Shown: positions 4,265-5,604 of the stretch, piece after piece
How the letters are laid out: every line of letters starts with the position of its first letter
Numbering within the stretch: the stretch's first letter is position 1
Assembly: GCA_003647765.1 (NCBI GenBank)
Contig: QMNM01000124.1
Span: 1-5,604 of the forward strand
Reading direction: 5' to 3'
From: Candidatus Cloacimonadota bacterium
Lineage (GTDB): Bacteria; Cloacimonadota; Cloacimonadia; JGIOTU-2; B8-G9
DNA length: 5,604 nucleotides
The notes under the pieces: generated by a model
Database searches by the model: none
The model's input: only the letters and a program-made list of their open reading frames with translations
What the model was told of the DNA's origin: nothing
Made by a program: the position numbers and the translations under genes

Positions 4265-4807
4265 ATGGGAAATAATTATCATAAATTAGTATTATTAGCC
4301 ATTTTTACAGCAATTGCATCTTTGCTTTTCTTAGTAGAAAATTTAATCCCAAAACCATTACCATTCTTGCGCATTGGATTGGCAAATATATTGGTCATTT
4401 TAGTATTAGTTTTAATCGGATATAAAGAAGCATTGTTAATTACTGTTACCAAAACAGTATTAGGCAGTTTTTTCTCTGGCTTATTATTTTCGCCAACCAT
4501 CATTTTATCGTTAGGCAGTAGCATTGTTAGTTTAACCATAATGTTTATTGCATTAAAATCAAAAATCAGTTTTAGTTTAATCGGAATTAGTATTTTAGGT
4601 GCATTTTCCCACAATGCTATGCAATTGTTTTTGGTCTATATTTTGCTTATTAAAGAAGTTAGGATATTTTATTTATTCCCAGTATTAAGTATAATTGCAT
4701 TGATTTCTGGATTTATCACTGGAATAATCGCTTATACAAGTTATCCCAAATTGAAAAGATCTTGCGACGGTGTAAACACCGAGGCTGAGTCAATAAAAGA
4801 ACGCTAA
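4265..4807 (+). CDS. Gx transporter family / heptaprenyl diphosphate synthase component I-like membrane protein
   Basis: The 180-residue product is almost entirely hydrophobic, with about five or six membrane segments (roughly 8-26, 38-52, 56-75, 78-97, 104-128 and 135-157). Its family-typical motifs are ENLIPKPLPFLRIGLANI (25-42), the KTVLGSFFSGLLFSP segment (63-77) and the GAFSHNAMQL segment (112-121). It belongs to the family annotated as Gx transporter or heptaprenyl diphosphate synthase component I. The fold resembles small substrate-binding transporter subunits of the ECF type, and the substrate is not known. The older enzyme name rests on a partner role in Gram-positives and need not apply. 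No partner (prenyl synthase, NusG-like or FMN-binding protein) is nearby. The start has no Shine-Dalgarno sequence and ATG is the only reasonable choice before LVLLAIFTAIASLL. The last residues, about 167-176, are encoded by a hairpin repeat (4764-4791), so the C-terminal tail is probably not ancestral. Confidence 0.82.
   Translation: MGNNYHKLVLLAIFTAIASLLFLVENLIPKPLPFLRIGLANILVILVLVLIGYKEALLITVTKTVLGSFFSGLLFSPTIILSLGSSIVSLTIMFIALKSKISFSLIGISILGAFSHNAMQLFLVYILLIKEVRIFYLFPVLSIIALISGFITGIIAYTSYPKLKRSCDGVNTEAESIKER
4764..4791 (+). repeat. Hairpin repeat, family A copy 1, inside the 3' end of the Gx-transporter gene
   Basis: The 28-base unit reads GCGA, then CGGTGT, loop AA, ACACCG, then AGGCTGAGTC. 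The six-base stem is perfect (4768-4773 with 4776-4781). A second copy of the same length lies in opposite orientation at 4894-4921 with the same flanks and loop but a different stem. This copy encodes residues 167-176 of the upstream gene, in frame. Confidence 0.7.
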
Positions 4808-4821
4808 AGCATCCTATTAGC

Positions 4822-4851
4822 CACAAAATTACACGAAAACACACAAAACCT
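4822..4851 (+). repeat. Three-unit 10-bp tandem repeat, CACRAAA with phased A-tracts
   Basis: CACAAAATTA, CACGAAAACA and CACAAAACCT begin at 4822, 4832 and 4842, an exact 10-base period. Each carries four A in a row, so the A-tracts are in phase with the DNA helix and could bend it. The block is flanked by near-identical TTAGCCACAAA (4817-4827) and TTAGCTACAAA (4854-4864). Confidence 0.55.
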
Positions 4852-4869
4852 TGTTAGCTACAAATAAAT

Positions 4870-4893
4870 AGCGTCCTTTAGAACGCTTTCTTT
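4870..4893 (+). terminator. Possible intrinsic terminator of the Gx-transporter gene
   Basis: AGCGTCCT (4870-4877) pairs with AGAACGCT (4880-4887) with one C-A mismatch and a two-base loop, and the sequence continues TTCTTT (4888-4893). It begins 62 bases after the stop. The tight loop and the interrupted T-run make it imperfect, and it may simply be another repeat hairpin of this cluster. Confidence 0.4.
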
Positions 4894-4921
4894 GACTTAG
4901 CGTGTGGATTTATCCACTCGC
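4894..4921 (-). repeat. Hairpin repeat, family A copy 2
   Basis: Read on the minus strand this is GCGA, then GTGGAT, loop AA, ATCCAC, then ACGCTAAGTC. It matches the copy at 4764-4791 in length, in the GCGA and A[GC]GCT[GA]AGTC flanks and in the AA loop. Its six-base stem differs but is still perfectly paired. The outer GCG and CGC also pair across one T-T mismatch. It lies in the argF leader region. Confidence 0.7.
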
Positions 4922-4944
4922 AATTAGTTTGAACTTATACCGTA

Positions 4945-4981
4945 AAACCCGACTCGAGTTCAAAGAACCCGAGTCGAGTTT
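4945..4981. repeat. 17-position stem with three-base loop upstream of argF
   Basis: AAACCCGACTCGAGTTC (4945-4961) folds onto GAACCCGAGTCGAGTTT (4965-4981) around the loop AAA. Fifteen pairs are Watson-Crick and two are C-A mismatches on the + strand (4957 with 4969, 4949 with 4977). In a minus-strand RNA both become G-U pairs, so the stem would be continuous. No T-run follows on the + strand. The two arms are also near-direct repeats (AACCCGASTCGAGTT). Confidence 0.7.
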
Positions 4982-4995
4982 CTGTGAAAAAAAAA

Positions 4996-5014
4996 ATCCC
5001 GTAGGGATGAAATA
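4996..5014 (+). repeat. GTA-loop hairpin repeat, family B copy 1
   Basis: ATCCC (4996-5000), loop GTA, GGGAT (5004-5008), then GAAATA, and four bases later TAGC. It shares this plan with the copy at 5046-5064. Confidence 0.65.
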
Positions 5015-5045
5015 CTCGTAGCAATAATTACAATAGCAAATCATA

Positions 5046-5064
5046 GCTCCGTAGGAGCGACATA
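5046..5064 (+). repeat. GTA-loop hairpin repeat, family B copy 2
   Basis: GCTCC (5046-5050), loop GTA, GGAGC (5054-5058), then GACATA, and two bases later TAGC. The stem differs from copy 1 in two paired positions while the loop and the GA[AC]ATA tail are kept. It lies 50 bases from copy 1 in the same orientation, shortly before the argF ribosome site. Confidence 0.65.
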
Positions 5065-5096
5065 AATAGCTTTAACCATTTTTATTAAAATTCTAT

Positions 5097-5103
5097 GGAG
5101 GAG
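5097..5103 (+). promoter_or_regulatory. Strong ribosome binding site that fixes the argF start
   Basis: GGAGGAG lies two to four bases before the ATG at 5106, a slightly close but very strong match. The ATG at 5095 is out of frame, so 5106 is the start. Confidence 0.8.
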
Positions 5104-5105
5104 AT

Positions 5106-5604
5106 ATGGCGTTTAATTTAAAATCTAGATCTTTACTAACACTTATTGACTTTTCTGCCAAGGAGATTGATTTCCTGATTGATTTAGCAATTAAATTGAA
5201 GAGGGATAAATATGCAGGAATTTACAGTAAGAATTTGGAGCATAAAAATATCGCCTTGATTTTTGAGAAGAGTTCTACTCGGACAAGATGTGCGTTTGTG
5301 GTTGCTTGTATAGATGAAGGTGCGCATCCTGAATATTTAGGTAAAAATGATATTCAATTAGGTAAAAAAGAGACAATTGAGGATACTGCTCGTGTTTTAG
5401 GCAGAATGTTTGATGGCATTGGTTTTCGTGGATTTAAGCATTCTACTGTAGAAATTTTAGCAAAATATTCTGGTGTTCCTGTGTGGAATGGTTTGACAGA
5501 TAAATTCCATCCGACTCAAGTGTTAGCTGATTTTATGACCATTAAAGAGATAAAGGGCTATTTAGCAGGGATAAAACTTGCTTACATAGGTGATGGCCGA
5601 AATA
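5106..5604 (+). CDS. argF: Ornithine carbamoyltransferase, N-terminal half (runs off the window)
   Basis: This enzyme joins carbamoyl phosphate and ornithine to give citrulline in arginine synthesis; the reverse reaction works in the arginine deiminase pathway. The 166 residues visible are about half of the usual 310-335. They cover the whole carbamoyl-phosphate domain. The signature FEKSSTRTR is at 53-61 with the phosphate-binding STRTR at 57-61. [16 protein letters not shown] (94-109) supplies Arg108, and HPTQ is at 135-138. GDGRN (162-166) begins the second domain. FEKxSTRTR separates it from aspartate carbamoyltransferase. Alignment by memory with E. coli ArgF is close throughout with an offset of about two residues. 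The SMG ornithine loop is beyond the window. It could be the catabolic arcB, since sequence alone does not decide and no other arginine gene is visible. The leader is crowded with hairpin repeats, and I see no clear ARG box. Confidence 0.95.

Follow-up and report, generated by a model that had tools for sequence, protein, structure and literature searches.

The hairpin pair described here is likely a miniature, non-autonomous mobile element of the REPIN/BIME type that is moved, or was formerly moved, by a TnpA transposase of the subclass-1.2 type; its binding, cleavage and mobility are what we infer. This explanation is supported by the copy number of the element, its fixed two-ended layout, its confinement to one order, the covariation of its stems, its bracketing of transposase genes and its extragenic placement. 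REP doublets and their transposases are already known. New with respect to the literature would be the association of subclass 1.2 with REPs, the host phylum, an inward tag without GTAG and the four-hairpin layout. Our search covered open-licence papers, in which no paper linked subclass 1.2 or Cloacimonadota with REPs, and a prior description is possible. In an uncultured phylum, a family of REP doublets is here linked to a transposase subclass reported without REPs, a case from which one may learn how IS200-like transposases might become REP-associated. Additionally, natural stem variants over several genomes make the recognition rules directly testable in vitro. For the genome under study, the element accounts for the ends of some genes and probably for certain contig breaks.

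Anatomy of the element and its copies in one genome

The window, i.e. the whole stretch of 5,604 nucleotides that was analysed, is contig C150 of a genome of 1.97 Mb (G000; 360 contigs, 88.8% complete). Two 28-base units lie in it, one at 4764-4791 on the + strand (GCGA CGGTGT AA ACACCG AGGCTGAGTC) and one at 4894-4921 on the - strand (GCGA GTGGAT AA ATCCAC ACGCTAAGTC). They have a common frame, composed of GCGA, a six-base stem, AA, the complementary stem and A[GC]GCT[GA]AGTC, and both stems pair perfectly while being unlike at four of six positions. The coordinates, length, frame and stem differences given in a preliminary description of the window are exact in every respect. That description also took the pair as hairpins kept against drift. 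Throughout the genome, the two belong to one inverted-pair element of about 111 bp, with CGGTGT as its fixed left and GTGGAT as its fixed right end. Two independently drifting hairpins are thereby ruled out and, given that the stems are end types genome-wide, the window pair alone is no proof of compensatory drift. The features in the window are:

4265..4807, + strand: open reading frame with an Hpre_diP_synt_I domain, whose stop codon and last residues lie inside the left end of the element
4757..4763, + strand: left border of subfamily 1, AGATCTT here and AGATATT in most copies
4764..4785, + strand: left-end (A) hairpin GCGACGGTGTAAACACCGAGGC, the left-end type fixed throughout G000
4786..4793, + strand: inward tag TGAGTCAA, forming the central stem by pairing with TTGACTTA at 4892-4899
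4798..4815, + strand: inner hairpin 1, imperfect (AGAACGCTAAAGCATCCT), terminator-like on the - strand
4818..4867, no strand assigned: nested extra repeat, about 47 bp net (TAGCCACAAAATTACACG...TTAGCTACAAATAA), absent from standard copies
4870..4887, + strand: inner hairpin 2 (AGCGTCCTTTAGAACGCT), terminator-like on both strands
4892..4899, + strand: right-end inward tag TTGACTTA, directly 5' of hairpin B
4900..4921, - strand: right-end (B) hairpin GCGAGTGGATAAATCCACACGC, the right-end type fixed throughout G000
4922..4939, + strand: conserved right flank of subfamily 1 (AATTAGTTTGAACTTATA...), truncated here by another hairpin repeat

Each element has five helices, namely hairpin A, the central stem (TGAGTCAA with TTGACTTA), the two inner hairpins and hairpin B, so that four hairpins are arranged around the central stem. 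The inward tags pair as T[GA]A[GA]TCAA / TTGA[CT]TTA. The foot of the hairpins is GCG/CGC and the inner tag reads CT-R-A-N-TC; a GT[AG]G or CGTC tetranucleotide is absent at the foot. Compared with shuffled sequences, the RNA fold of the window region has a z-score of -6.1, and the DNA folds of six copies from four genomes have z-scores of -5.1 to -8.3. The element supplies the stop codon and final residues of the Hpre_diP_synt_I reading frame. Upstream of the left border of subfamily 1, the copies have mostly unrelated sequence, and in other copies the right flank extends to ...ACTGCGAAAGTCCTG.

The pattern GCGAN6AAN6ANGCTNAGTC, with two mismatches at most, has 66 matches in G000, versus 6 for the reversed control, and these fall at about 45 loci; a covariance model yields 64 matches at E<=0.01. 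The family with constant flanks and maintained hairpins that had been proposed is thus borne out, and the situation that was to speak against it, only two copies in the genome, does not apply. The 61 tallied units divide into 37 that combine the CGGTGT stem with TGAGTC and 24 that combine GTGGAT with TAAGTC. They are arranged as A(+)...B(-), with a start-to-start distance that is usually 83 in standard copies of G000 and 100 in G002. In the window copy the distance is extended to 130 by about 47 bp of another repeat in the middle of the element. Most loci (41 of the 46 tested) are outside long open frames.

The elements themselves receive insertions. The nested repeat of the window (TTAGCCACAAAATTACACG...TTAGCCACAAATAAATA, 4818-4867) has related inserts in copies L043, L048, L050 and L051, and together with a relative, TTTGTGAATTCGTGGCTTTAATAATATTAG, it recurs mid-element, near the same position, in many copies (L015, L038, L042 and L055 are further loci). 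A further palindromic element, TCACCC...GGGTAAA, has entered units at one constant point, directly after GCT at the tag. This is seen in L031, L034 and L054 (G000), L070 (G014:C105), L121 (G009:C188) and L171 (G013), and the repeat described here seems to be its target.

Distribution and stem covariation in Cloacimonadota

An exact scan of 84,980 species genomes gave 'Candidatus Cloacimonadota bacterium RS_16_45' as the sole match, a genome of the same order that appears in our set twice with identical contigs, as G001 and as G014. The covariance model was built on 41 distinct units from the seven top-scoring genomes, whose top rank is therefore by construction: G000 has 64 matches, G014 31, G002 29, G009 13, G006 10, G013 5 and G003 3, while the other 52 relatives have 0-3 each. 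A stem-free pattern search gave the same picture of the distribution. The repeat family is essentially confined to one order of Cloacimonadota.

Between genomes the stems change and stay paired. In G002 the left end is GCGAGGGCATAAATGCCCACGCTGAATC (GGGCAT) and the right end GCGAGGGGGTAAACCCCCACGCTAAATC (GGGGGT), which are other stems, all paired, in an unchanged frame and inverted layout. In the 41 distinct units, pairing holds for 87.3% of cells. Their covariation score of 0.431 exceeds the 0.131 +/- 0.016 of shuffled alignments, none of 500 matching it, and the maximum of 0.106 in slid ones; most of these units came from the free-stem pattern and hence were not selected for pairing, with a few added from pairing-filtered flanks. 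Full elements (16 elements, 40 pairs) score 0.470, versus 0.167 shuffled and at most 0.118 slid, and 23 of the 40 pairs have changes on both sides. Fixed across the stem variants are the GCG foot, a TAAA-type loop and the CT-R-A-N-TC tag, whereas the stems need only pair. Among copies of one genome, the inner hairpins differ as whole blocks and the outer hairpins stay (L066, L074, L075).

Within G000 the changed stem pairs comprise 25 broken, 7 wobble and 8 compensatory ones. Broken pairs prevail, which implies that single copies are not protected. Pairing is thus preserved across lineages and not copy by copy, presumably via the copies that amplify; this would follow if spread were templated by a fraction of the copies. 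The preliminary description had named many copies with covarying stems in the genome and its relatives as what would establish a family, and unpaired stems in other copies as evidence against a maintained hairpin. The copies are indeed many and their stems covary across species, but in G000 they mostly decay singly and the unpaired stems do occur. Maintenance against drift hence holds between species, where compensation is real, but does not follow from the window pair, whose stems are end types.

A search for empty versus filled sites in genus mates gave no clean case. We dropped a candidate insertion 3' of TTTTGT in mgsA with an identical right end, since the G009 sequence differs, the junction is unclean and the match is maybe a coincidence; the site is already occupied in G013 and has other sequence in G009. 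At this same site, the C-terminus of mgsA (KVATV stop) is supplied by the element in L077 (G014:C205) and L171 (G013:C136).

The Y1/HUH transposases bracketed by the element

In three genomes, doublets bracket a clade of Y1 (HUH) transposases, with five genes at four loci: G014:C105 (two tandem genes), G009:C188, G006:C39 and G009:C34. Each tandem gene of G014:C105 has a complete doublet before it and a unit after it. The G009 orthologue (93% identical) and the G006 relative (70%) are bracketed in the same manner, the latter by a full doublet directly before and another directly after the gene. A 57%-identical relative in G009 has two doublets before and one related, decayed doublet after, and relatives of 60-63% in G046 and G010 have similar flanking hairpins. 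In a tree, the five clade proteins that were included group at 100/99 support. The hairpins of the enzyme loci are also dispersed in the same genome, as is the case for GCGAGAATATAAATATTCTCGC at G014:C97 and GCGAGATGGTAAACCATCTCGC at G009:C419.

The C105 protein (142 aa) has DHVH, WQ and YVKNQEEHH and matches Pfam Y1_Tnp. It reaches 85 bits with the NCBIfam IS200 transposase model (cut-off 55) and 29.6 bits with the REP-associated transposase model NF047646 (curated cut-off 80), and the nearest solved structure is IS608 TnpA. Having no Y---NP and scoring below the cut-off of the RAYT profile, it falls outside the RAYT / TnpA-REP class 2. Judged by motif and size against Table 1 of PMC6006769, the enzyme is an IS200-like TnpA with subclass-1.2 motifs. 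Members of TnpA-Y1 subclass 1.2 have DH[IV]H, WQ and YIKNQKEHH (Y-x-x-N-Q-x-x-H-H), about 148 aa and a low copy number; they are listed without REPs, and their hosts are given as Cyanobacteria and Bacteroidetes (Quentin et al. 2018, PMC6006769). The genes found here are alike in motifs, size and low copy number, and differ from the subclass as surveyed in that hairpin doublets flank them and that the host is Cloacimonadota. A search for subclass-1.2 homologues on plasmids gave distant IS200 matches only.

The link to a REP-associated tyrosine transposase suggested in the preliminary description proved right in kind, in that a Y1/HUH clade is physically tied to the repeat in relatives, but the enzyme departs from a canonical RAYT and a GTAG tag is lacking. 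The genome of the window does have one Y1 gene, at C246, but this belongs to another clade (33% identical) with other hairpins in its flanks, and we rejected it as the cognate enzyme. G000 (88.8% complete) and G002 (99% complete) both have many repeat copies, and in neither was a member of the bracketed clade found. For G000 this absence is weak evidence, because short-read assemblies easily lose genes with repeats at their flanks; we infer that its cognate enzyme has been lost or lies in unassembled sequence.

The element is comparable to several known systems. With the REPINs of Pseudomonas fluorescens (Bertels & Rainey 2011, PMC3116915) and the BIMEs of E. coli it shares an inverted pair of REP-like hairpins at near-constant spacing as the repeated unit, many and mostly extragenic copies, and compensatory changes on the two hairpin sides, here across species; unlike REP types within one unit are also seen in the Y and Z REPs of E. 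coli. It differs from REPINs and BIMEs in having no GT[AG]G tag and instead a conserved CT-R-A-N-TC tag on the inner side of the hairpins, in its two additional inner hairpins and in the host phylum. As in REPtrons with TnpA-REP/RAYT (PMC6006769, PMC8266576), a Y1/HUH gene at a single locus has REP doublets immediately on its flanks, relatives of which are scattered over the genome; this is the arrangement in G014, G009 and G006 and not in G000. The enzyme, in contrast to that of REPtrons, has Y--NQ--HH and not the class 2 Y---NP, and lies below the cut-off of the NCBI REP-associated model. IS200/IS605 elements such as IS608 are similar in TnpA homology and in single-strand hairpins beside presumed cleavage sites, and unlike in that the hairpins here form inverted pairs beside the gene and dispersed full-length gene copies were not seen.

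Proposed mode of spread and hairpins around other TnpA genes

Food for thought is how such an element might move. It is made up of two unlike, inverted REP-like hairpins, between which lie two inner hairpins and the inward tags that pair with each other. The element would fold whenever it becomes single-stranded, as it may on the lagging strand. A Y1/HUH transposase with subclass-1.2 motifs could then bind hairpin plus tag, its tyrosine cutting beside them, and the excised single strand would be rejoined elsewhere by the transposase. We propose that the protein reads shape and tag and not the stem sequence, which would leave the stems free to change between lineages while paired. By analogy with IS608 and E. 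coli TnpA-REP (PMC8266576), binding, cleavage and movement of this kind would be likely. The mode of REP spread is unproven even in E. coli (PMC8266576). Against this explanation stand the lack of a clade gene in G000 and G002, the lack of a clean empty site and a G014 subfamily that may have spread as a passenger.

The latter could suggest that the hairpin pair is carried inside a longer element with terminal inverted repeats, a MITE moved by a DDE transposase, which we consider unlikely. Doublets of the GCGAGATGAT type in G014 do lie inside a repeat of about 400 bp with ends ATACCCCCAAAA.../...TTTTGGGGGTAT (L066, L067, L073, L074, L075) and apparent target duplications of variable length (13-22 bp), and some G000 copies have outer inverted repeats TACTTTGTCAA/TTGACAAAGTA. 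Some copies, such as this G014 subfamily, may therefore spread as passengers. Subfamily 1 in G000, however, has a sharp left border, most of its copies are without a matching right inverted repeat and no target duplication was seen by eye; moreover, the doublet, not the outer repeat, is the unit that is common to genomes and brackets Y1 genes. Rather improbable as well is that gene and flanks are an ordinary self-mobile IS200-type insertion sequence, of which the dispersed units are remnants of internal deletion. The IS200 model score and IS608 TnpA as closest solved relative would fit, but each close type of the gene occupies one locus per genome (with the tandem pair in G014 and the second, 57%-identical gene in G009), no dispersed full-length copies were seen in the genomes searched, and the same gene-plus-ends unit does not recur at several loci. 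Complete inverted doublets, not one hairpin per end, lie at the sides of the gene.

It is very improbable that the element is a functional RNA or bidirectional transcription terminator preserved through selection on the individual host operons, as most stem changes within G000 break pairs, copies carry nested inserts and a search of Rfam gave no credible family match (best E 0.58). Such a role would account for the predicted terminators formed by inner hairpins and T runs, of which there are 5 in 4600-5120 versus 0.4 expected, three of them inside the element, and for a position near gene 3' ends, the neighbouring genes being tandem at 8, convergent at 3 and divergent at 0 of 11 judgeable loci (a small sample with crude gene calls). 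Local use as terminator is nonetheless compatible with a mobile origin.

Beyond the mobile element favoured here, Q--H-type TnpA genes in relatives have 1.86 perfect hairpins (6 bp or more) per 250 nt nearby, versus 0.27 farther away and 0.43 beside other genes, in counts with a small control set (42 genes), a few doubled loci (e.g. L090/L119, L057/L112, L108/L163) and the class-2 gene L086 in the Q--H group. At 19 of the 31 genes a perfect hairpin is present on both sides, and the hairpin families differ by clade. This enrichment is a lead, not proof. We see about even chances that TnpA-Y1 with subclass-1.2 motifs is a further REP-mobilising lineage, in which many Cloacimonadota genes have clade-specific multi-hairpin doublets, no GTAG tag is needed and stems change as blocks in a constant frame. 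The class-2-like Y1 genes (Y---NP) L084, L085 and L086 of G014 have their own hairpin families, e.g. TCGTCAGGGA..TCCCTGACGA and TGGTTCA..TGAACCA. Relatives in the clade of C246, the only Y1 gene in G000, are flanked by hairpins of the CCCACGATTAAAATCGTGGG/AACCGTTTCAACGGTT type, which also occurs at 2481-2631 of the window, where a second hairpin repeat family is located (GCCCACGATTTTAATCGTGGG, AACCGTTGAAACGGTT, CCCACAACTGAAGTTGTGGG). Finally, further hairpin repeats occupy 4941-4985 and 4996-5058 of the window: AACCCGACTCGAGTTCAAAGAACCCGAGTCGAGTT, which is also found at L054, ATCCCGTAGGGAT and GCTCCGTAGGAGC.
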